DNA of 64,000 nt from Bacteroidia bacterium (GTDB lineage: Bacteria > Bacteroidota > Bacteroidia > Chitinophagales > UBA2359), in the NCBI GenBank assembly GCA_030427245.1, contig JAUHXA010000035.1, forward strand, positions 1-64,000, given 5' to 3'. Shown here in pieces: positions 3,064 to 48,407 of the stretch. Position 1 is the first letter of the stretch. Each line of letters starts with the position of its first letter. The position numbers were made by a program, and so were the translations under genes. The notes beneath the pieces are model-generated. The model saw only the letters and a program-made list of their open reading frames with translations, was not told the DNA's origin and did not search any database.

Positions 3064-3399
3064 AGAAATCCCTCTCCTTCGTCGAGCGATTTCTGCCCAA
3101 CGGAGCGAGCGATATTGTTACGATATTCTCGTTCCGTTAAGCTTTAGGCATGTCCTAAAGCTGGGTCGTGCCTTCTTTACGCTTTGGGAAAGGTTCAGTC
3201 GTTGGGCACGGACAACGACTGTCGAATTTTAGAATTCGCCTTCCATAAGGCAGAAGGCACTATCCGCCAACACTGTGTACACGCAATAGCACCCACTATT
3301 GCAGGTTCACAGTTACTTATATTTTTTAAAGGTACGTACCTTAGCAGCGAGCTTTCGCTACACGTGGTCGTGGGTGCGACTGCGTGTACACTCGCTCCG
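3057..3399 (+). repeat. Spacer cassette R3
   Basis: Third copy, with cores GTTGGGC (3057) and GCCCAAC (3095-3101) and a GAATTC site (3232-3237). Its exit core is damaged: GCTGCAA (3399-3405) instead of GTTRRRY. The downstream cassette ends with a GCAGCGAAC-type inverse core, whose complement would be GTTCGCTGC. A deletion of about four bases at this junction would explain the mismatch. Confidence 0.78.
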
Positions 3400-4345: not shown

Positions 4346-5326
4346 ATGGCAAGAAGAGCAACTAATAAATTACTACAAAAAGCTAAAAAATCAAAAAGTG
4401 ATGAATTTTACACACAACTTGCAGATATTGAAAGTGAGTTGAAACATTATAAAAATCACTTCAAAGACAAAGTAGTTTACTGCAATTGTGACGACCCAAA
4501 AGTTAGCAATTTTTTTAAATATTTTTCCTCTAATTTCGAAGATTTAGGACTAAAGAAATTAATATCAGCTTGTTACAGAAAACAAGAGGTAGATTTATTC
4601 AATAGCGAAAAAACTGAAAGTGGATTTTACTTTGAATATGAAGGTGAACAGATAGATAGAAATGCAACCAATAAAGATAAAATTGATGTGGTTCACTTTA
4701 AAGGCGATGGAGATTTTAGGAGCAAAGAGAGCATCGAACTTTTAAAACAGTCTGATATTGTTGTTACTAATCCACCCTTTTCACTATTTCGAGAATATGT
4801 AGCTCAACTAATAAAATACGATAAAAAATTTCTAATAATTGGGAATATAAATGCAATTACATATAAAGAGATATTCAAATTAATAAAAGAAAACAAAGCG
4901 TGGTTAGGAATTAATTTAGGAAGAGGTATTTCAGGTTTTATTGTCCCTGAACATTATGAACTTTATGGTACAGAAGCAAGAATTGATGATTACGGAAATA
5001 GAATAGTATCTCCGAATAATTGTTTATGGCTAACAAATTTAGATACACCTATACGAAATGAAGATATACCCCTATCAAAAACATATTACGGGAACGAAAG
5101 TGAATATCCTAATTACGACAATTATGACGGAATTAATGTAAACAAAACAAAAGATATACCTAAAGACTATAAAGGTTTCATGGGAGTTCCAATAACATTT
5201 TTACACAAATTCAATCCCAATCAATTTGAAATCATAAAATTCAGAAAAGGAAATGATGAAAAGGATTTGGCAATAAATGGCAAGTGTCCATACTTCAGAA
5301 TTCTAATCAAAAACAGAAGATTATAG
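4346..5326 (+). CDS. ecoRIM: EcoRI-type adenine-N6 DNA methyltransferase
   Basis: 326 residues, the same length as M.EcoRI, which protects GAATTC by methylating the inner adenine. The N-terminal segment KLLQKAKKSKSDEFYTQ, the VVYCNCDDP motif, the catalytic motif IV VVTNPPFSLFREY and the C-terminal CPYFRILIKN all match the EcoRI methylase. The order (nuclease first, methylase second, same strand, short gap) is as in the E. coli pair. About 44 bases separate the stop from the start of the cassette's attC arm. Because each spacer repeat in this array carries a GAATTC, expression of this enzyme is needed to protect the array itself. Confidence 0.95.
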   Translation: MARRATNKLLQKAKKSKSDEFYTQLADIESELKHYKNHFKDKVVYCNCDDPKVSNFFKYFSSNFEDLGLKKLISACYRKQEVDLFNSEKTESGFYFEYEGEQIDRNATNKDKIDVVHFKGDGDFRSKESIELLKQSDIVVTNPPFSLFREYVAQLIKYDKKFLIIGNINAITYKEIFKLIKENKAWLGINLGRGISGFIVPEHYELYGTEARIDDYGNRIVSPNNCLWLTNLDTPIRNEDIPLSKTYYGNESEYPNYDNYDGINVNKTKDIPKDYKGFMGVPITFLHKFNPNQFEIIKFRKGNDEKDLAINGKCPYFRILIKNRRL

Positions 5327-8660: not shown

Positions 8661-8965
8661 CTATCTCCACTTCAAATCCAACGAATTAATCACTTCTCAC
8701 CCCCTAATTTCTAAAATGAAACAATCCGTAGATGTATAAATTTGACCTTACACCCATTTTTGTTATTTTTACCAAACAGGAAAGTCAGACAAAAACCATA
8801 GCCTTTCCCCTATACTCCATTTCGGGCGGAACCGGTGGCTAAATTGAAATCCGTTTTTTCGCTTGGCAGATATGATATATAAAGAAAAAGAAGGCGGCGG
8901 CGCACAATAAAGTGTAGCTGACGTTAGCGATAATAAATCATTGAACCTAACATTTTCAACTTAAC

Positions 8966-10084
8966 ATGAAATTAACTCCAAAGGCGAAAAGAAACATTTC
9001 AAGGATTATTCCCTTCGCCATTATCTGGCTAGTGAGTGGATGGATAGTTGATGTAACGGAGCTCGGAGTAACACGTAATCAAAACCTCAATTCAGATACT
9101 GATATTGCCTTGACCGCCCCAGTGCTGATATTTGCTAGCCTCGCAAATATCCTGGTTGGAGCTATTGTAGGAGCTTTAGAAGTGGTTTATTTAGAAAAGA
9201 GATTCTCAAACCGAACACTGAGTGCTAAGATTTTTTACAAATTCTTAATCTACCTTGCCTTATTTATTATCATTATAGTCCTCCTTTATCCTGTGGCATT
9301 TACGCTCGAAACAGGCATAAGTTTGCTAAAAGTTGATGCTTGGCAAAAATTGGGTAGATTCTTAGTAAGTATCTCTTTTTTTATCACCCTATTTCATTTG
9401 TCTGTAAGGCTTATGGTTTGTTTGATATATTCAGCTATAAGTGAAAACTTAGGACACCATGTGTTTTTAAATTTTTTTTCCGGGAAATACCATCAACCCC
9501 AAATTGAAAAGCGGATTTTCATGTTCCTAGACATGAATTCTTCGACTACAATAGCCGAATCTCTAGGCCACATAAAATACTTCAAATTACTGGACACCTA
9601 TTACAATAGTATGTCAGACCCCATCATCAATTCATTCGGTGAAGTCTACCAGTACATAGGAGATGAAATCGTGATTTCATGGAAACCTGATAAGGGGATT
9701 TACCAGGCAAACTGCATCAAATGTTTCTTTGACATATGCAATCATCTCAATGAACAAAAAGAAGTTTTATTTCATGAATTTGGCTTTGAAATTGGTTTCA
9801 AAGCTGGGATTCATTTCGGTGAAGTCACTATTGGAGAAATTGGAGCCTTAAAAAGGGAAATCGTATTTACGGGAGATGTCTTAAATACAACCGCTCGAAT
9901 CCAAAGTCTTTGTAAGGAATTAAAATCTGACTTACTGATCTCAGGTGCAATTAAAGAATTATTACCCCATTCTAACTATCAATATAGCTCTAAAGGAGAG
10001 ATAGAACTGAAAGGAAGAAATAAGAAAGAAGAACTGTTTAGCGTAACTTTAGAAAAGAAGCCGACAATCGCTAACAATATGTAA
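8966..10084 (+). CDS. Membrane class III adenylate/guanylate cyclase
   Basis: 372 residues. The N-terminal ~165 residues hold several hydrophobic segments (around 12-28, 48-72, 85-112, 130-160) consistent with a membrane anchor. The C-terminal half is a class III nucleotidyl cyclase domain: FMFLDMNSST (first metal Asp), YQYIGDEIVISW (second Asp), HFGEVTIGEIG, and LNTTARIQS (transition-state Asn/Arg). It would make cAMP or cGMP at the inner membrane; which one is not clear from sequence. The last codons and stop run into the attC (ending PTIANNM), so the gene belongs to the cassette. A Crp-family regulator gene lies two cassettes downstream, but no link is shown. Confidence 0.85.
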   Translation: MKLTPKAKRNISRIIPFAIIWLVSGWIVDVTELGVTRNQNLNSDTDIALTAPVLIFASLANILVGAIVGALEVVYLEKRFSNRTLSAKIFYKFLIYLALFIIIIVLLYPVAFTLETGISLLKVDAWQKLGRFLVSISFFITLFHLSVRLMVCLIYSAISENLGHHVFLNFFSGKYHQPQIEKRIFMFLDMNSSTTIAESLGHIKYFKLLDTYYNSMSDPIINSFGEVYQYIGDEIVISWKPDKGIYQANCIKCFFDICNHLNEQKEVLFHEFGFEIGFKAGIHFGEVTIGEIGALKREIVFTGDVLNTTARIQSLCKELKSDLLISGAIKELLPHSNYQYSSKGEIELKGRNKKEELFSVTLEKKPTIANNM

Positions 10085-14591: not shown

Positions 14592-14614
14592 TTGGCTGTA
14601 ATTAAAAGACAAAA

Positions 14615-15859
14615 ATGAAAATCTGCATTGCACAAACGAAATCTGAAAAAGGAGAAATTCAGTTGAATATAGAAAATCATTTGAAGCTAATCAATCGTGC
14701 AATCGGTTTGAATTCCAACCTAATAGTATTCCCAGAATTATCCATTACTAACTATGAACCTGATATAGCCAAAGAATTTGCTATTGATATAGATGATACT
14801 ATTTTTAATTCATTTCAAAAATTGTCAGATAAAAATGAAATAGTTATTGGAGTTGGGATGCCAACCAAGGCAGTTGACGGGATAAATATTAGTATGTTGA
14901 TTTTTCAACCGAATAAAGAGAGAATGATTTATTCCAAGTGTCTACTTCATTCTGATGAAATTCCATATTTCGTAAGTGGTAACATCCAGCCATTCTTAAA
15001 GATAAAAGGAAAGAAGATTGCTCTCGGAATATGCTATGAAACACTTCAACGAGAGTATTTTATAAAAGCAAAACAAAATGGTGCTGATGTTTATATTGCA
15101 AGTGTTGCAAAACCAGATAGAGGAACGGATAAAGCATATTCATATTTTCCTTTAATAGCAAAGGAATTTGAAACTCCAATACTAATGTCTAACTCTATTG
15201 GATATTGCGATAATTTTCTAAGCAATGGGCTTAGTTCTGTTTGGAATAGAAAAGGAGAATTAATCGGGCAACTTGATAAAGTAAATCAAGGTCTACTGAC
15301 TTACGACACAGAAACTGAAATAGCAGAAGTGAACCAACTGAGAATAGAAAAAGGGCTTTTGTCCGATTTAGACGACCTTTTCCAAATTTATAAGAATAGT
15401 AAGACGGAATTAGAGAAAAACGGAATTTATCAATGGACAGATAATTATCCAACACGTTCGATTATTCAAAATGATTTAAGAAAGGATGTACTGTATGTTC
15501 TAAAAAACGATAGGGAAGTAATAGGTGCAATAAATTTAAGTGAAGAACAAGAAGATGAATATCAATCTATTAATTGGCAATTTGATAATTCTAAAGTATT
15601 GGTTATTCACAGATTGGTGGTTGAACCAAAACACCAAAGAAAAGGCTACGCAAGAATACTAATGAATTTTACAGAAAATTTTGCAAAAGAAAACAGCTAT
15701 ACATCAATAAGATTAGATGCGTATAGTAAAAATGAAAGGGTATTAAAATTTTATAAAAAGCGAGAATATTTCATTCGAGGGGATGTTAATTTTCCTGAAA
15801 GAAATCATCCTTTTCATTGTATGGAAAAAGAAATAAAAACTGCCTACAACAAAGGCTAA
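14615..15859 (+). CDS. Nitrilase-superfamily amidohydrolase fused to a GNAT acetyltransferase
   Basis: 414 residues. Residues 1 to ~245 form a carbon-nitrogen hydrolase with the Glu-Lys-Cys triad: E in FPELSITNYEPD, K in YSKCLLHSDE and C in LGICYETLQREYF. Residues ~260-410 form a GNAT domain with the acetyl-CoA loop VVEPKHQRKGYARILM. The fusion could hydrolyse an amide and acylate an amine in one polypeptide, but the substrates are not predictable. It is alone in its cassette; its stop codon lies inside the cassette's attC, as does that of the cyclase gene. Confidence 0.85.
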   Translation: MKICIAQTKSEKGEIQLNIENHLKLINRAIGLNSNLIVFPELSITNYEPDIAKEFAIDIDDTIFNSFQKLSDKNEIVIGVGMPTKAVDGINISMLIFQPNKERMIYSKCLLHSDEIPYFVSGNIQPFLKIKGKKIALGICYETLQREYFIKAKQNGADVYIASVAKPDRGTDKAYSYFPLIAKEFETPILMSNSIGYCDNFLSNGLSSVWNRKGELIGQLDKVNQGLLTYDTETEIAEVNQLRIEKGLLSDLDDLFQIYKNSKTELEKNGIYQWTDNYPTRSIIQNDLRKDVLYVLKNDREVIGAINLSEEQEDEYQSINWQFDNSKVLVIHRLVVEPKHQRKGYARILMNFTENFAKENSYTSIRLDAYSKNERVLKFYKKREYFIRGDVNFPERNHPFHCMEKEIKTAYNKG

Positions 15860-41126: not shown

Positions 41127-42584
41127 TCATTTTATCAACCCGTCCACAATCTTAGCCGACAACAAACAAAGCGGAATCCCGCCTCCAGGATGCACACTTC
41201 CTCCACAAAAATACAGGGCTTTGATGTTGCTCGAAAAATTGGGATGCCTTAAGAAAGCCGCAAACTTGTTATTCGAGTTGCTGCCGTACAATGCGCCTTG
41301 ATGCGATGCCGTTTTGGCTTCAATACTTCGAGGATCTAAGATGGCTTCAGTTACTATGAGTTTGGAAACATCAACCTTCAACATTCTTGTCAATTTTTGC
41401 AAGATATTTTGGCGAGTTGCTTCAATGAGGGCTTCCCAATCCTGTCCTTCATTTGAAGGAACATTTACCATCACAAACCAATTTTCACAGCCTTTTGGCG
41501 CATCATTTGGTTGGTATTTAGAGCTGATATTCAAGTAAATGGTGGGGTCATGATAGACTGTTTTTTGCTTGAAGATGTGGTCAAATTCCTCTTTGTAGTT
41601 TTCACTGAAGAAAATATTGTGCAAATCCAATTGGGGAAATTGCCGCTTGATGCCCCAATAAAAAATCAAGGCAGAACTTGATTTCGGTTGCTGCAAAGTT
41701 TTTTCGGGAGCTTTCTCATTAGGCAATAATCGCTTGTAAGTATAAAAAACATCCATGTTGCTTACCACCCTATCAAAACTCCACAACTTTCCTTCCACTT
41801 TCAATCCCACCACTTTTTTGCCTTGTACTTCAATGCTTTCAACTCGGCTATTGAAGCGAAAAATCACGCCCAATTCTTTGGCTACTCGCAAAAGCGTTTG
41901 GGTAATCGCATACATGCCACCTATCGGAAAATACGCTCCCAAATTGTGTTCGAGGTGCGGAATGATGTTGAGTGTTGCAGGAGCTTGATAGGGGTCTGAG
42001 CCATTGTATGTAGCGAAGCGGTTGAAGAGTTGGGTGACCTTTGGGCTTTCAAATTGAAGTTGATTTGCCTCATTCATGGTTTTGGTTAAATCCAATTGTG
42101 GCAAACGTGAAATGGCTTTTAAAGTTGAAGTTTGAAAGTAAGTTTGCAGCTTGTGTAGGGAATTTTCGAGAAAAATTTTCTTGGTCAAATCGTATTTTTG
42201 GCGGCTTCGTTCTAAATGCTCAAACACTTTCTGAGGATGTTCACCCGTTTTTTTATAGACTTCAATGCAAAACTCCTTTACCTTCGAGAATCCTTCAATT
42301 ACCGTTCCGTCCTCATAAAAATATTTGCAGACAGTTGGTAAGCGGGTATAAGCAAAATAATCCACCGTATTTTTATCTGCCAATTCCAGCAATTCATCCA
42401 CCAAAGTTGGTAAGGTAAACAAAGAAGGGCCTGCATCAAAGCGAAAACCATCTTGTTCTATTTGCGACAATTTGCCGCCAGCGTAATCATTCGCTTCAAA
42501 AACAGTCACTTCAATGCCTCTGCAAGCCAATCGAATAGCCGTAGCCAAACCCGCAATGCCTGCTCCAATGATGCCAATTTTCAT
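41127..42584 (-). CDS. Phytoene desaturase (CrtI-family) oxidoreductase
   Basis: 485 residues. The FAD-binding dinucleotide fold opens the protein (KIGIIGAGIAGLATAIRLAC, then VTVFEANDYAGGKLSQI and FRFDAGPSLFTLP). The C-terminus FCGGSVHPGGGIPLCLLSAK is the CrtI-type end signature. Such enzymes desaturate or hydroxylate carotenoid precursors. No other carotenoid genes are adjacent, so it could be CrtI, CrtD or a related retinol-saturase-like enzyme. Confidence 0.85.
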   Translation of the reverse strand: MKIGIIGAGIAGLATAIRLACRGIEVTVFEANDYAGGKLSQIEQDGFRFDAGPSLFTLPTLVDELLELADKNTVDYFAYTRLPTVCKYFYEDGTVIEGFSKVKEFCIEVYKKTGEHPQKVFEHLERSRQKYDLTKKIFLENSLHKLQTYFQTSTLKAISRLPQLDLTKTMNEANQLQFESPKVTQLFNRFATYNGSDPYQAPATLNIIPHLEHNLGAYFPIGGMYAITQTLLRVAKELGVIFRFNSRVESIEVQGKKVVGLKVEGKLWSFDRVVSNMDVFYTYKRLLPNEKAPEKTLQQPKSSSALIFYWGIKRQFPQLDLHNIFFSENYKEEFDHIFKQKTVYHDPTIYLNISSKYQPNDAPKGCENWFVMVNVPSNEGQDWEALIEATRQNILQKLTRMLKVDVSKLIVTEAILDPRSIEAKTASHQGALYGSNSNNKFAAFLRHPNFSSNIKALYFCGGSVHPGGGIPLCLLSAKIVDGLIK

Positions 42585-42630: not shown

Positions 42631-42696
42631 TCAACTCCCAAACACTCCCACATAATTAGAAGGCGTAATCGCAACAATTCTTGCGAACTTTCTTTT
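42631..42696 (-). pseudogene. Duplicated purB 3'-end remnant (possible att site)
   Basis: The minus-strand reading KRKFARIVAITPSNYVGVFG followed by Ser and a stop matches the C-terminus of purB at 47052 (ELRGITPFNYVGVFGGK). The DNA match is strongest over CCCAAAC through GGCGTAATC. It lies just beyond the distal end of the R-M/lipoprotein/YhcG block. I interpret it as the displaced original 3' end of purB left by an integration event. Confidence 0.6.
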
Positions 42697-42732
42697 TCAC
42701 TTGATAAAATACTCAATGCTCATCTGTTTATT

Positions 42733-44475
42733 TTAAAACAGGGTCATTTGTTGACTACTCAATTCTGTCCCCATTAATCTCTCAAACTTCTTCCATTCTC
42801 CTTCTTCAATATTTTCCAAAGAAAATCGAACTTCATTGAAAGAAAACAAGTTGTATAGTTTCTGAAAATCTATCCTCATCAAAACTTGTTTGGTGATTGC
42901 CCTTTTAGAATCGGAAAAAATAATAGATTTCAAAAACTGTTGAACAAAAGGAGAGTTTAGCAAAAAATGAGCGATTCGAGCATTTACCAAATCTTCAAAA
43001 CCAATAAAATAACAGGTATCGTCCAACATAATGGGCTTGTCATCATCGGGAAGCACTAAGGTAAAATGCGTTGTTTTGTACATTCCCGAGATAGCAACTT
43101 TGTAGGGAGCAAAAGAATAATCGCCTACTCCAAAAATAGAGAAAGGAGGTTTTCCTTTGTAAATAATGGATTTGCGCTTATCGAAATGCGCCTTGTTTTC
43201 CTTCAAATAAGCATAGGTTAGAGGAAAATTTCGTTGGATATACTGGGTATCTTGACCGATTTTTTTCTGGGTAACAATGGTGATTTTTCGGTAAGAGGTT
43301 TGCTCCTTATTCTTCAAATCAGAACTTTTCAAAAGTCCATATATCAAATCCTTTTCAAGCTTTACTTCTTGCTTCAATTTATTGATATAGTGACCATTGC
43401 AGCGTTCCATTTCCATAATCTTGGTACAATCGTGTTTGATTCCTTGCCGCCAAACAAATTGTGATATTCCGTCTATCTCACTTGCTGCTTTATAATCTGC
43501 AATCGAATAAACAAATTTGTCTTTGTACCAACCAAAAGTATTTAGTTTTTGAAGATTGTATAAATCCATTTCTTGGCAAATGAAAGCAGGGTTTTGATTG
43601 AGTTGGCATAGAAAAAGACAGGCATCCACCGAAACCTCAAATTCTTTTTTGGAGTCTATATTTAACTTTTCAATACCTTCAATGTGAAAACTGTTGCTTT
43701 TTTGTTCGTAGAGAAGGTTTTTGACCACAGTATTTTTAATTAAAAACGCAAACTGCCCATTGTGTTTGTGAAAAGCATTGAGTAATAATAGAGAAATGTA
43801 TTCTCCGATGTCAAAATTCCCTTTTCCTGTAATCGCATCTATACCATTGTGTTTTTTGAAATTGGATTTTTTGGGTAAGTTTTTAGAATCCATAGCTCCC
43901 AATTCTGCATTTGTTACCCACGGCGGATTGCCAATCACCAAAGTTTGCCAGTCTTTGGTTTGAGTAGCCAACTGTTGAAATGAAAAGGAAAAAATATTGG
44001 CATGAAGGATTTCGATTGCGGGTTTGGAAATAGCCTCATTTTGAAGGTAAAAACTCAAGATTTTGAATTTGGTTTCCCATACATAAGGAAGGTAAACTTC
44101 AATTCCCACCAATTTTATGAGGTTTTTGAACTGTTGAAGGCTTGCTATGACAAAGCTCCCTTTTCCACAAGTTGGCTCTAATACAAATTGGGGTTTTGCT
44201 TCTTTTTCAGCAATATATTTCACCACTCGATTAGCCAATTCTTGATTTGTTTGAAAATCTCCATAAGCCCGTCTATCCAAGATTGCAGATTCCGATTCTG
44301 TCTCTTGAAGCTTTTGCTTCAAATCAATCAGTTCTTCATCGGTATTGAAGAATTGATTGATGCCACAAATATCGTTTAATAAAGTGTTCGCAGTTTCAAA
44401 AGAGGTGATATGAAAGAGTTTACTTCGTAGGAAATCAACTGCAAAATTATCTATGTGTGCTTCAAAACAGGTCAT
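42733..44475 (-). CDS. N6-adenine DNA methyltransferase (type II R-M)
   Basis: 580 residues. Motifs of a gamma-type m6A methylase are visible: VLEPTCGKGSFVIASLQQF (SAM site) near residue 100 and LVIGNPPWVTNAELG (NPPW, catalytic motif IV) near 190. The C-terminal ~300 residues probably contain the target-recognition domain. The stop is followed by the purB-like remnant. The restriction gene lies 10 bp upstream in the same transcript. The recognition sequence is unknown. Confidence 0.85.
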   Translation of the reverse strand: MTCFEAHIDNFAVDFLRSKLFHITSFETANTLLNDICGINQFFNTDEELIDLKQKLQETESESAILDRRAYGDFQTNQELANRVVKYIAEKEAKPQFVLEPTCGKGSFVIASLQQFKNLIKLVGIEVYLPYVWETKFKILSFYLQNEAISKPAIEILHANIFSFSFQQLATQTKDWQTLVIGNPPWVTNAELGAMDSKNLPKKSNFKKHNGIDAITGKGNFDIGEYISLLLLNAFHKHNGQFAFLIKNTVVKNLLYEQKSNSFHIEGIEKLNIDSKKEFEVSVDACLFLCQLNQNPAFICQEMDLYNLQKLNTFGWYKDKFVYSIADYKAASEIDGISQFVWRQGIKHDCTKIMEMERCNGHYINKLKQEVKLEKDLIYGLLKSSDLKNKEQTSYRKITIVTQKKIGQDTQYIQRNFPLTYAYLKENKAHFDKRKSIIYKGKPPFSIFGVGDYSFAPYKVAISGMYKTTHFTLVLPDDDKPIMLDDTCYFIGFEDLVNARIAHFLLNSPFVQQFLKSIIFSDSKRAITKQVLMRIDFQKLYNLFSFNEVRFSLENIEEGEWKKFERLMGTELSSQQMTLF

Positions 44476-44485
44476 TTAGGTTATT

Positions 44486-45145
44486 TTAAATCAATTTGGA
44501 AATTCCTTCAACTTCTGACGATAATTTGACTACTCTGCCATATTGCAGCCTCCATTGAAGTGCATTGGAAACAGTTAGATAGCCTTGTTTGGGAGTTTCG
44601 GTTAGAATTTTCTCTGCAATCAAATCAAGCGTAAAATCATCAGCGGGGATGTTTTTATCATTGAGATAGCCAATAATGTCTTCTTTATTTGCACCGTCTT
44701 TTACCATTTCTCTCAGTCTAAACGTTGTAGTGTAATCTGCGGTTCGCTCTTTTTCGAGAAATGAACAACTGACAAAGTTAAGTTGGGCTGTTTGGGTATT
44801 TGAATCGTCCATTTTGTCATACACGAAAATTAAAAGATTGTAACCCAACCCGAAAATTTTCTGTTTGGCATCTCTAAAAGGACAAGAAGATTGGGGCTGC
44901 CGAATAGAAGTCACTTTGATGTCTGTTTGTATGTGTTTATCTGGCAAATCAATTCCTCTGGCAGACGAGCCTTTCTGATAAGAGAATTGAGCTTCAAGAT
45001 AGTTTTGAAACTTGTGTTCGATGTATGTTCCAATTGCTTTCCCATCTGTCGTTCCATACAAATATTCATTTTTGTGATTTGATTCAATTATACAGAACTC
45101 TTTTGCACATCTTTTTAATTCGCTTACTGTTAATATCGGTTTCAT
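44486..45145 (-). CDS. Type II restriction endonuclease, family not named
   Basis: 219 residues. A PD-(D/E)xK-type site is visible as GIDLPDKHIQTDIKVTSIRQ (Asp...Asp-x-Lys) near residue 65-80. The protein also contains KIFGLGYNLLIFVYDK and a C-terminal GYLTVSNALQWRLQYGRV, which I associate with restriction enzymes paired with NPPW-type methylases. It is 10 bp from the methylase gene. The cleavage site cannot be read from sequence. Confidence 0.7.
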   Translation of the reverse strand: MKPILTVSELKRCAKEFCIIESNHKNEYLYGTTDGKAIGTYIEHKFQNYLEAQFSYQKGSSARGIDLPDKHIQTDIKVTSIRQPQSSCPFRDAKQKIFGLGYNLLIFVYDKMDDSNTQTAQLNFVSCSFLEKERTADYTTTFRLREMVKDGANKEDIIGYLNDKNIPADDFTLDLIAEKILTETPKQGYLTVSNALQWRLQYGRVVKLSSEVEGISKLI

Positions 45146-45187
45146 GGTTGTCTTTTTATGATTCCATTATTACTTTCTATTTATTTT

Positions 45188-46003
45188 TCAACGATAAGGT
45201 CGCCTGTTTTTACTATCCTTTTCGCTCGATAAAATCTGTATTTTTTCAAGGTCATCATTCAATTCAAAGTCAATTTCCTCCCAAGCTCCCAATTTAGAAT
45301 ACACTATCATTCCATCAATTCCTTCCTTCAATTCTTCTTTTGAAAAATGCAACTCATAGCTCCAATTTTCACCCAATCTTTGTGCTTCCCCTTCAATTTT
45401 AAGCATGGGCTTCATTTTGTCGCTGATGCCTTCCAATCTAATATCTACTCGAACTGAATCCTCTGAAATAGGTGTTTTAGCTATGAAAACATCGTATTTT
45501 GTAATGACCATTCTACTTGTTAGAATTTGATTAGCAATGTTTTGGTTGAACAAAATATCCATCATTTGTTCTCGAAGAACAAATTCAGTAAGGTTTCCTA
45601 CAAAGAGTTGGTTTATATTATTGTAGTAAGTTTCAATTTTTACTGAATCAATAAGTTGTGTTTTTGACAAAGCTTCAACATAGTCTTTTTGAACTTGTCG
45701 CTTACTCTTTATCTCTTGTTTGATGAATTCAATATCGTTAAAATCTTCTGCTTCAATAACCTTCATTAAACTATTAAAGTGTTGCAGCTCATTAGAGTAT
45801 TTACTCACAAAATCAAACACTTCGGGTTTTTCAATCAAAAGATGCACGTGAGAAAGCATCATTTTTGATTGAATTTCATTGGGTAAATCGCCCAAAGGCA
45901 TAGTTTTGAGTGACTTTTCATCAGAATTACAGGCAAAGAAGAAAGGGAGTAAGACAAAGAGGATTGGGAAAAGTAGGATGTATTTCATTGAGGAAACAAT
46001 CAT
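45188..46003 (-). CDS. Putative lipoprotein, function unknown
   Basis: 271 residues. The N-terminus (MKYILLFPILFVLLPFFFAC after five leading residues) is a lipoprotein signal with Cys as lipid anchor. The start at 46003 overlaps the upstream stop as ATGA, favouring translational coupling; MKYILL at 45988 is the alternative. The rest is helical and charged, with no recognised domain. It sits between the YhcG nuclease and the R-M pair, so it belongs to the same minus-strand block. An envelope protein inside a restriction island is unexpected. Confidence 0.65.
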   Translation of the reverse strand: MIVSSMKYILLFPILFVLLPFFFACNSDEKSLKTMPLGDLPNEIQSKMMLSHVHLLIEKPEVFDFVSKYSNELQHFNSLMKVIEAEDFNDIEFIKQEIKSKRQVQKDYVEALSKTQLIDSVKIETYYNNINQLFVGNLTEFVLREQMMDILFNQNIANQILTSRMVITKYDVFIAKTPISEDSVRVDIRLEGISDKMKPMLKIEGEAQRLGENWSYELHFSKEELKEGIDGMIVYSKLGAWEEIDFELNDDLEKIQILSSEKDSKNRRPYR

Positions 46004-47040
46004 AGAGTTTCATTTTGCTTTTTGACCTCAATATCAATCTGCTTCAAAATCTGTTTGAGTTCTTTTTTGCTGGGCAAATCTTTAGCCAAATCTTTGGGAA
46101 TTTTTTTCATCAATTGATAAGAAGCCACACCCATAGGTTTGTTTACATCTCGTAGAGCATACTCCACCACCACATCGTTTTTGGATTTGCAGAGGAGCAA
46201 ACCAATGGTAGGTTTATCTTCCTTTTGCCGTACTAAATCATCCATTGCAGAAAGATAAAAATTCAGTTTTCCCGCATATTCGGGTTTAAAAACATCCGTT
46301 TTCAGTTCTATCACCACATAGCAATGCAGCTTGATGTGATAAAAAAGCAAATCCATATAAAAATCTTGCTCTCCTACTTCAATATGATATTGTCGCCCAA
46401 CAAAAGCAAAGCCTTTACCCAATGCCAATAAAAATTCGGTAATGTAGTTGGTCAGTGCATTTTCTAAATCTCTTTCGCTTTTGGCATCCCCTTGCCCCAA
46501 GAAATCAAAAATGTATTTGTCCTTCAAAATTTGCTTGACCAAATCCGACTGCAATGGAGGTAAATGTTCATCGAAATTGTTGGGAAGTTTCCCATGATTT
46601 TCATGAGCTTTTAGGTCGATTTGGTGCATTAATACTCGATAAGACCAACCACTTTCGGCAGATTTTTGGATATACCACAAACGCACATCTTCATCTTTTA
46701 TCTTATCCATTAATAGCACATGATGTGACCAACTAATTTGTGCCGACACTGTCGGCACAAATTCAATCTTTGGATATAAAGCTGCAAACCTCCTCATTTT
46801 CTTTAGATTACGAGCCGATAACCCTTTCATGTCGGTAAACTCATTGCGAAGGTCTTTTGACAATCTATCAATTACTTTCGTTCCCCAACCTTCTTTTTCT
46901 TGTTGGGCGAGAATAAGCTTTCCGATTTCCCAATAGAGTTGAATCATTCGAGAATTGACAGATATAGCTGCTTTTAAGCGAGCTTTCTGAATATGTGTTT
47001 TCAAACTTTGAAGGATAGATAGATAATTTTTTTGATTCAT
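46000..47040 (-). CDS. YhcG/DUF1016-family PD-(D/E)xK nuclease
   Basis: 346 residues. The N-terminal DUF1016 region (ISVNSRMIQLYWEIGKLIL, GLSARNLKKMRRFA) is followed by a nuclease domain with FYMDLLFYHIKLHCYVVIELKT, giving the Asp...ExK site, and a GLLLCKSKNDVVVEYAL ending. YhcG proteins often accompany restriction systems and are thought to be Holliday-junction-resolvase-like nucleases or R-M accessories. It starts 12 bp downstream of purB, so the block was inserted directly behind that gene. Confidence 0.85.
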   Translation of the reverse strand: MNQKNYLSILQSLKTHIQKARLKAAISVNSRMIQLYWEIGKLILAQQEKEGWGTKVIDRLSKDLRNEFTDMKGLSARNLKKMRRFAALYPKIEFVPTVSAQISWSHHVLLMDKIKDEDVRLWYIQKSAESGWSYRVLMHQIDLKAHENHGKLPNNFDEHLPPLQSDLVKQILKDKYIFDFLGQGDAKSERDLENALTNYITEFLLALGKGFAFVGRQYHIEVGEQDFYMDLLFYHIKLHCYVVIELKTDVFKPEYAGKLNFYLSAMDDLVRQKEDKPTIGLLLCKSKNDVVVEYALRDVNKPMGVASYQLMKKIPKDLAKDLPSKKELKQILKQIDIEVKKQNETL

Positions 47041-47051
47041 GGTATTTTGAT

Positions 47052-48407
47052 TTATTTTCCCCCAAACACCCCAACATAATTAAAAGGAGTAATCCCCCTC
47101 AATTCCTGTTTCACTTCCTCCGAAACCTCCAATCCTTCAATAAAATCCTTGATACTCTGCTCCGTAATCCGTTCATTCGTGCGACTCAAGGCCTTCAACG
47201 CTTCATACGGATTTGGGTAAGCCTCTCGCCTCAAAATCGTCTGAATCGCCTCGGTAACGACTGCCCAATTGTTGTCCAAATCTGCTTTAAGAGCTGATTC
47301 GTTGAGCAATAATTTGTTCAAACCCTTCAAGGTGCTTTGAAAACCAATCAAGGTGTGAGACATCGGAACGCCAATATTGCGGAGGACGGTCGAATCGGTC
47401 AAGTCTCTTTGAAGGCGAGAAATGGGGAGTTTGGCACTTAGATGCTCCAAAATGGCATTGGCGATACCGAAATTCCCTTCGGCGTTTTCAAAGTCAATCG
47501 GATTTACCTTGTGTGGCATGGTAGAAGAACCGACCTCGCCTTTTTTGATTTTTTGCTTGAAATACTCCATCGAAATGTAGGTCCAAACATCTCTGCAAAG
47601 GTCTATCAAAATGGTGTTGATGCGCTTCAATCCATCGAAAAAAGCCGCCATATTGTCGTAGTGTTCGATTTGGGTTGTGTATTGCGAACGCTTCAATCCG
47701 AGTACCTTTTCGACAAAATTATTGGAGAAAGCTATCCAGTCAATATCTGGATAAGCGACTGCGTGTGCATTGAAGTTGCCCGTTGCACCACCAAATTTTG
47801 CAGCAAAAGGCACTTCTTCGACTAAGGATAGTTGAATAGAAATTCTCTCTATAAAAACTTGTATTTCTTTACCTAAAAGAGTAGGCGAAGCAGGTTGACC
47901 ATGCGTTCGAGCGAGCAAAGGAATGTCTTGCCACTCGACTGACAAATCTTTTAATTTATTTTGTAGGCTTTGAAGCATGGGTAAATATTCCCCTTCAAAG
48001 GCTTTTTTGAGCGAAAGAGGTGTGGCAGTATTGTTGATGTCCTGAGAGGTCAGACCAAAATGAATAAACTCTTTGTGAGCCGATAAACCCAAATTTTCAA
48101 AAATTTCTTTCAAAAAATATTCGACTGCTTTTACGTCGTGATTGGTCGTGCTTTCGATTTCTTTAATGCGTTGAGCATCTTTCAGTTGAAAGTTTTCGTA
48201 AACAGATCGTAGCTGTGGAAATATTTCGGGATTGACTGCCTTCAGTTGGGGAAGAGGAAGCTGACAGAGGGCAATAAAGTACTCGATTTCGACATATACT
48301 CGGTAGTGAATCAAACCAAATTCCGAAAAATAAGGCGCAAGATTTGAGACCTTAGAACGGTAGCGTCCGTCAATAGGAGCAATTGCAGTAAGTGAACTTA
48401 ATTCCAT
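47052..48407 (-). CDS. purB: Adenylosuccinate lyase
   Basis: 451 residues. The fumarase/ASL signature GSSTMPHKVNPIDFENAEG is present, with HDVKAVEYFL (catalytic His region) and TRTHGQPASPTLLGKEI. It acts twice in purine synthesis, releasing fumarate from SAICAR and adenylosuccinate. Its last residues, ITPFNYVGVFGGK, reappear in degenerate form at 42631-42696. It is divergent from topA. Confidence 0.96.
   Translation of the reverse strand: MELSSLTAIAPIDGRYRSKVSNLAPYFSEFGLIHYRVYVEIEYFIALCQLPLPQLKAVNPEIFPQLRSVYENFQLKDAQRIKEIESTTNHDVKAVEYFLKEIFENLGLSAHKEFIHFGLTSQDINNTATPLSLKKAFEGEYLPMLQSLQNKLKDLSVEWQDIPLLARTHGQPASPTLLGKEIQVFIERISIQLSLVEEVPFAAKFGGATGNFNAHAVAYPDIDWIAFSNNFVEKVLGLKRSQYTTQIEHYDNMAAFFDGLKRINTILIDLCRDVWTYISMEYFKQKIKKGEVGSSTMPHKVNPIDFENAEGNFGIANAILEHLSAKLPISRLQRDLTDSTVLRNIGVPMSHTLIGFQSTLKGLNKLLLNESALKADLDNNWAVVTEAIQTILRREAYPNPYEALKALSRTNERITEQSIKDFIEGLEVSEEVKQELRGITPFNYVGVFGGK

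Follow-up and report, generated by a model that had tools for sequence, protein, structure and literature searches.

Restriction–modification (RM) units are known to insert with long, variable target duplications on the order of 100 bp, as described in the relevant parts of PMC3874152 and PMC3031569, which cite Nobusato et al. (2000) and Furuta et al. (2010) for such insertions. For the nuclease YhcG (DUF1016, COG4804), Kosinski et al. (2005; PMC1189080) predicted from sequence a C-terminal PD-(D/E)XK domain, alongside a helical N-domain with no assigned role. Here we analyze an island that carries both an RM pair and yhcG, lying between purB and a crtI-like gene in a 64,000-nt stretch of a Bacteroidia bacterium genome (Chitinophagales, UBA2359; assembly GCA_030427245.1, contig JAUHXA010000035.1, positions 1–64,000 of the forward strand; hereafter the window). 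The explanation we consider best, and probable, is a joint one: The island arrived by insertion of a cassette, and its YhcG protein reads a palindrome within its own gene, with autorepression as the most likely effect.

On the minus strand, the order is purB, yhcG, a lipoprotein-like gene, a type II restriction endonuclease, an adenine methylase, a remnant of the purB tail, and the crtI-like gene. The insert contains RM genes, as in RM insertion with a long target duplication, and it shares with the insertions of Nobusato et al. and Furuta et al. the placement of RM genes between direct repeats with no mobile-element genes found. It differs from them in having yhcG as the junction gene and a repeat of which 34 nt are sure. 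This type of insertion is already known, and the island is probably one more case of it. The YhcG passages of Kosinski et al. (2005; PMC1189080) hold neither a fold for the N-domain nor an intragenic site, whereas we propose a ParB/Noc-like fold and a self-encoded palindrome.

A palindromic site within yhcG

The yhcG gene starts 11 bp behind purB and contains a perfect palindrome. The features on which the following analysis draws are these:

46000–47040, minus strand: yhcG (DUF1016), with a ParB/Noc-like N-domain and a PD-(D/E)XK nuclease domain (PF17761, PF06250; PADLOC PDC-S02; predicted structure)
46735–46763, no strand: perfect 29-bp palindrome in yhcG, with 14-nt arms and one central base, core 46741–46757; proposed YhcG binding site (repeat search, family comparison)
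46810–46812, minus strand: codon of R77, at the start of helix 76–88; predicts base −7 (covariation, predicted structure)
46798–46803, minus strand: codons of K80 and K81, in the same helix 76–88; the K81 column predicts base −5 (covariation)
46639–46641, minus strand: codon of Y134, at the start of helix 134–142; predicts base −3 (covariation, predicted structure)

We scored imperfect palindromes at this site, elsewhere in the gene, and after synonymous codon shuffling, in a family set and in an independent set from viral contigs. Genes without alignment on both flanks of the site were dropped (142 to 138; viral, 62 to 54), as were genes 90% alike (138 to 126; viral, 54 to 46). The window's own yhcG is counted once in the nonredundant set, having been counted twice in an earlier tally of 101 genes. 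The 62 viral loci came from an alignment-based search; a viral scan with a single YhcG protein found nothing. Palindromes with a score of at least 7 were present at the site in 106 of 126 nonredundant genes, compared with 44 of 2145 windows elsewhere in the gene (2%) and 268 of 7560 synonymous codon shuffles (3.5%) at the same threshold. The viral set gave 38 of 46 genes, 27 of 818 windows, and 166 of 2760 shuffles. Because the frequency at the site far exceeds that in synonymous shuffles, the protein sequence does not explain the palindrome. In 122 of 126 genes, and in 45 of 46 viral genes, the palindrome was centered on the first position of a codon.

Arm pairing was 93%–99% at offsets 3–8, where single bases vary most (68 different six-base arms among the 106 genes), was high again at AATT (offsets 10–13), and was absent past offset 14. 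Dispersed palindromic elements, such as repetitive extragenic palindromic (REP) sequences and Rickettsia palindromic elements (RPE), were rejected as an identity for the site because the window's palindrome core occurs once in its own 7.58-Mb genome, and another type, CGAACGCASTGCGTTCG, occurs at three places in 149 genomes, all inside yhcG. As portrayed in the pertinent sections of PMC4316617, Rickettsia palindromic elements are, like the yhcG site, in-frame palindromic DNA within coding sequence, but they are dispersed in the genome, whereas the yhcG site is private to yhcG. A homing endonuclease was likewise rejected, since the gene does not interrupt its recognition site and the palindrome is intact within the gene.

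Additional copies of the site were seen in part of the family. With two mismatches allowed, 33 of 143 genes had a second copy nearby, in nearly every case inside the gene itself, and the reversed pattern was found once. The yhcG gene of Escherichia coli K-12 has three copies, 39 nt apart, and nine other E. coli alleles have one to three (three of the nine are marked as pseudogenes). At locus L047 (L numbers denote compared loci), where yhcG lies beside a homologous RM pair, a different palindrome occupies the same codons, and an extra copy of it is found 2.6 kb away, upstream of the endonuclease gene (3299–3329), so that YhcG might regulate the RM pair at this locus as well.

Three further observations concern the architecture of the gene. 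Many YhcG proteins owe their extra length to in-frame tandem palindrome units (L162, L164, L165, L172, L204, L216, L217, L218, and others). In a subgroup with CTCTCA-type arms (L174, L236, L258, L324), the site is present a second time, exactly 183 nt deeper in the gene. In E. coli genomes (H44–H51), yhcG matches often start or stop at gene base 385–406, just behind the palindromes; these breakpoints may be natural truncations or domain swaps.

The six arm bases that vary were checked for covariation with every protein column, leaving out the columns that the site region encodes. The leading columns were the same in both gene sets. Residue 134 for base −3 and residue 77 for base −7 were each the best of 296 columns; in the viral set, residues 77 and 134 ranked first and second of 296, residue 81 fourth, and residue 80 twenty-first. 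Among 159 pooled genes, base −3 was C with K134 (18/18) and R134 (24/26), A with L134 (11/11) and V134 (40/54, with T in 12), and G with T134 (14/16) and A134 (10/12), while base −7 was G with R77 (55/57) and C with K77 (16/17).

In leave-one-out prediction, residue 134 gave the correct base −3 in 130 of 158 genes, compared with 101 for the nearest relative; where the two disagreed (55 genes), the residue was right in 39 and the relative in 10. Residue 77 was correct for base −7 in 119 of 152 genes (nearest relative, 89), prevailing in 42 of 64 disagreements against 12 for the relative, and residue 81 was correct for base −5 in 129 of 156 (nearest relative, 121). That these residues outpredict the nearest relative speaks against shared descent as the source of the covariation. 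Between L207 and L198, which are 87% alike elsewhere, the residue and both arms switch together, lysine with TCGTGCCACTGGCACGA and valine with TCGTTACACTGTCACGA (C/A). There were exceptions to the code: In the pairs L266/L253 and L337/L334, the base differs while residue 134 stays the same. The first E. coli copy obeys the rule in both allele classes, with lysine accompanying C and arginine accompanying G at −7. Within the gene sets compared, the site, its codon register, and its covariation with residues 77, 81, and 134 are statistically established.

YhcG structure and the possible action of its site

YhcG carries the DUF1016_N and YhcG_C families (153.2 and 215.8 bits; cutoffs 32.8 and 32.5). 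The AlphaFold model of the whole protein was moderate (pLDDT 79.3, pTM 0.49), and that of the N-domain alone was good (pLDDT 93.4, pTM 0.82). In the predicted structure, residues 77, 80, and 81 fall in the first part of helix 76–88, helix 134–142 starts at residue 134, and the loop that runs from helix 76–88 to W104 is encoded by the palindrome. The C-domain has a PD-(D/E)XK fold, with EndoMS/NucS as the nearest structure (2vld, E 1.1e-4; VIA Z 13.1, 105 aligned, 2.4 Å) and a conserved nuclease motif (D230, E/D245, K247). When Foldseek candidates for the N-domain were realigned with VIA-align, the top nine were all ParB, Noc, Spo0J, or SopB (Z 9.0–5.0, the next being 4.1). The best rows had Z 9.0 (100 aligned, 3.7 Å) and 8.9 (96 aligned, 2.5 Å), and of the ParB chains, which in ParB and Noc proteins also include a CTP-binding spreading domain, just the DNA-binding part was aligned, to YhcG residues 28–149. 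A profile search reached Spo0J at E 0.91 only, pairing LSMGH of Spo0J with LSWSH in YhcG. The modeled N-domain of YhcG appears to resemble the DNA-binding domains of ParB and Noc.

The apparent resemblance may extend to how a site is read. For ParB and Noc, the relevant part of Jalal et al. (2020; PMC7383237) describes a helix-turn-helix domain that reads a palindrome, with specificity set by a few residues on separate helices, as YhcG would do; R173 contacts guanine 1 and R201 pairs with cytosine 6. The YhcG rules, R77 with G on the outside and R/K134 with C on the inside, look like those of R173 and R201, although the residues are not aligned one to one, and the sequence alignment (E 0.91) sets YhcG residue 134 in a later helix than R201. 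Unlike in ParB and Noc, the DNA-binding domain of YhcG would be joined to a nuclease domain; almost all members have the site within their own gene, and the arms are hypervariable.

We propose that the ParB/Noc-like N-domain reads the palindrome within the yhcG coding sequence, probably as a dimer; on the strength of the sequence comparisons, YhcG probably binds this site inside its own gene. Bound YhcG would then act as a roadblock ∼300 bp into yhcG and repress its own gene. The effect is the least certain part of this proposal; given binding, we put autorepression by a roadblock within the open reading frame (ORF) at somewhat better than even. It is favored because the site is always in the gene and cutting there would destroy the gene, and because a gene that comes to rest behind foreign promoters, such as that of purB, is well served by an intragenic operator. 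With the operator traveling inside yhcG, a single ORF would become portable. Intragenic operators are known, and a parS site lies inside spo0J of Bacillus subtilis. In these cases, as proposed for yhcG, the site of a DNA-binding protein is located within a coding gene, so that the arrangement is not wholly without precedent. Unlike such single intragenic sites, the yhcG site is the rule across its family and comes with a covarying code. We found no description of an intragenic yhcG site in PubMed Central open papers, with subscription papers and preprints outside the search; as far as searches of this open literature go, a self-addressed nuclease has not been described previously.

The same site could serve other ends. 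YhcG might bind and cut its own palindrome, the break driving copying or movement of the gene, as the conserved nuclease motif and the location of yhcG homologues between long target duplications would allow. Each nuclease also appears to have its own site, with no arm shared in 53 same-genome pairs; this count is not significant and gives no evidence of orthogonality, since 1.4% is expected among other pairs. Against cutting, a gene under constant cleavage would not survive, and this genome carries the 17-bp core intact and only once. We regard such cutting as unlikely, though not far-fetched, and hold the same opinion of conditional cutting that serves defense or spread. It is rather unlikely, in our judgment, that yhcG is a minimal selfish gene, a nuclease with a private DNA address whose binding or cutting controls and spreads the gene, leaving long target duplications beside the ends of genes; address and reader would then coevolve by a ParB-like code, so that each lineage would have its own key. 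A very improbable alternative is that the palindrome acts as a hairpin in yhcG mRNA and is read at the RNA level. A stem of 12–14 bp closed by a small loop is feasible, and in-frame tandem copies are tolerated, but an RNA stem should favor G–U pairs, and the arm mismatches had no such bias (24 G–T vs. 26 A–C), which favors double-stranded DNA. The arm bases, moreover, track residues located on two helices of a domain that resembles DNA-binding ones.

A defense island between two purB tails

The remaining features of the island and its borders are as follows:

47052–48407, minus strand: purB, adenylosuccinate lyase, intact (PF00206, PF08328)
47061–47094, minus strand: tail repeat, the copy internal to purB (repeat comparison)
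45188–46003, minus strand: lipoprotein-like protein, no family assigned (lipobox by eye)
44486–45145, minus strand: type II restriction endonuclease (NF052465, PDLC03454)
42733–44475, minus strand: adenine-specific type II methylase (PADLOC MTase_II; PDLC03310, 2.4e-119)
42671–42732, minus strand: possible extra purB homology up to the methylase stop, borderline (p 0.03–0.18)
42637–42670, minus strand: purB-tail remnant, the second repeat copy (repeat comparison)
41127–42584, minus strand: crtI-like oxidoreductase, the first gene past the island (PF01593)

An original prediction, made from the window's sequence, had placed a methylase, a nuclease, a lipoprotein, and a YhcG nuclease between two purB tails in the orientation of purB, and this gene content was confirmed (the endonuclease scored 327.7 bits against NF052465, with a cutoff of 290). 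It had also called a degenerate second purB C-terminus, which was borne out: The two copies are identical at 30 of 34 bases (88%; 42637–42670 vs. 47061–47094), and the local alignment score was 49, compared with a maximum of 31 in 2000 shuffles. Outside purB, no other 34-mer on either strand of the whole window matches the purB tail as well as the remnant does. The frame ITPSNYVGVFG is present on the minus strand, and the remnant's frame is broken upstream. Homology past the 34 nt, up to the methylase stop at 42735, was borderline (p 0.03–0.18 in four controls); with only 34 nt certain, the duplication is between 34 and ∼110 bp long. When the remnant was compared with 30 purB tails of this genome and its relatives, the genome's own tail was closest (score 49, next 36), which makes the remnant a copy from this lineage and not from a distant donor. 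The ending VGVFGG was found only in this genome's purB tail among the 30.

The best reading of the locus is that a defense cassette inserted directly behind purB, leaving a long target duplication. A cassette composed of yhcG, the lipoprotein gene, and the type II RM pair would have landed behind purB, the 3′ end of purB would have been duplicated, and the crtI-side copy would subsequently have decayed. We infer the insertion, since no relative had an empty purB–crtI site, and equally its occurrence as a single event and the direction of that event. None of the 40 relatives was from the same genus. Across 20 family regions (nine with purB, 11 with crtI), the two genes were never neighbors as in the window; one region, L085, has both, ∼3.8 kb apart and head to head. 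The original prediction held that a remnant in relatives without the island would speak against integration, and no purB-tail remnant was present upstream of crtI in any of 12 crtI loci.

With no empty site available for comparison, we examined the flanks of island-gene homologues elsewhere. At L052, an RM pair is bracketed by a duplicated AAA ATPase gene start, the two 105-nt copies being 93% alike. L249 has an intact N6-methylase gene, then yhcG, then an orphan 89-nt copy of the methylase tail (88%), an arrangement that repeats the purB picture. At L205, yhcG is preceded by an orphan copy, 97 nt long (95%), of the start of a C39-peptidase gene and followed by the intact gene, and duplications at yhcG were also found of an hsdS start (L168, 138 nt) and an hsdM tail (L167, up to 191 nt, 95%). 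These four yhcG loci and one RM locus, each flanked by duplicated ends of neighboring genes, support insertion with target duplication. Overall, flanking repeats were detected at seven of 31 homologous RM units and 11 of 162 control segments (E ≤ 0.02). The seven include the L052 gene-start duplication, the L047 yhcG palindrome, the repeats at L136 that by eye look like integron attC sites, and the weak cases L048, L049, and L135; L152, which has no methylase, was dropped.

The original prediction further suggested that the purB 3′ end might have served as an att site, an unusual one, for an element whose excision may be lost. Its insertion behind purB with a second tail left over stands, given the match to the genome's own tail and the parallel loci, but a classical att site with a lost integrase is not supported. 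Site-specific integration, with attL and attR remaining, would account for the use of a gene 3′ end, for a host gene restored intact by the island's copy, and for direct repeats at both ends. As the prediction had noted, however, no integrase is visible: No integrase or transposase family was found among the 16 window proteins from 33–59 kb, a scan that did not include smaller ORFs. The repeats, 88% alike, share no identical core, and homologous units at other loci occupy starts and ends of different genes. We therefore rejected an att-type integrative element and consider integration with loss of the integrase quite improbable.

Homologous exchange, in which a donor's purB and island recombined in and the recipient's purB end was left as the remnant, is improbable as well. 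The 12% difference between the tails is of a kind that alleles of related strains could show, and purB is otherwise ordinary, but no donor is known, and the 5′-end duplications in L205, L168, and L052 would demand the same story repeatedly. That the repeat arose by chance, or is a decayed tandem copy of purB, is hardly credible; the repeat is short, but its score lies far above the shuffles and it is the best match in the window.

Other properties of the island were also recorded. The GC content is 0.33–0.37 across its four genes and 0.40–0.42 for purB, crtI, and an ATPase gene. The RM pair is sporadic, the endonuclease occurring in six of 395 genomes of the class and the methylase in 29 of 396 genomes of the order at E ≤ 0.001, ∼18 of them strong matches (both counts include this genome). 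No sequence match in the PDB was found for the methylase, endonuclease, or YhcG, and the lipoprotein had no relatives among 368 compared loci apart from those of this window. A related plasmid gene is labeled an NspV homolog, and NspV recognizes TTCGAA; the island RM pair may read this hexamer, which occurs six times in the window where 30 are expected, other palindromic hexamers being as depleted. At L136, in a genome of the order Chitinophagales, a homologous RM pair lies between attC-like repeats identified by eye (1879–1915 and 4674–4710) and seems to be an integron cassette.

Balance of the evidence and significance

Several results tell against insertion combined with self-reading by YhcG. 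At the threshold used, 20 of the 126 genes have no palindrome. Foldseek alone gives no ParB match to the N-domain at E ≤ 0.001, and VIA Z scores of 7 to 9 are modest for a helical domain. For base −8, residue 80 was correct in 86 of 151 genes, fewer than the nearest relative (100 of 151), and the second and third tandem copies in E. coli break the R77/K77 rule. An upstream copy of the site, as expected of a classical operator, accompanies few yhcG genes (L156, L194, L284). On the side of the insertion, the empty purB–crtI site was not found in the 20 family regions, and the sure repeat is short (34 nt) and already 12% diverged, leaving its age and extent uncertain. Flanking repeats (E < 1e-8, within 600 nt) were found at nine of 127 yhcG genes and nine of 309 control ORFs, a weak excess; several of the nine control repeats lie inside the ORF, a distinction made afterward, and one is the L052 RM unit. 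Separately, we noted that control ORFs within the window's first 16 kb (594–1437, 1760–2999, 8950–10081, 14605–15856) have long, near-identical direct repeats at their ends (152–351 nt, 91%–100% identity), which look like a repeated gene or repeat family.

The purB island is a further example of defense genes moving without a visible transposase. The natural residue–base pairs of yhcG offer a ready data set on how DNA-binding specificity changes. YhcG is widespread (of 5426 complete E. coli genomes, 4417 carry yhcG) and has been an orphan nuclease for 20 yr. If it does read a site in its own gene by a code, the target would be known from sequence for almost every member of the family, and YhcG would become testable by simple binding and cutting assays.

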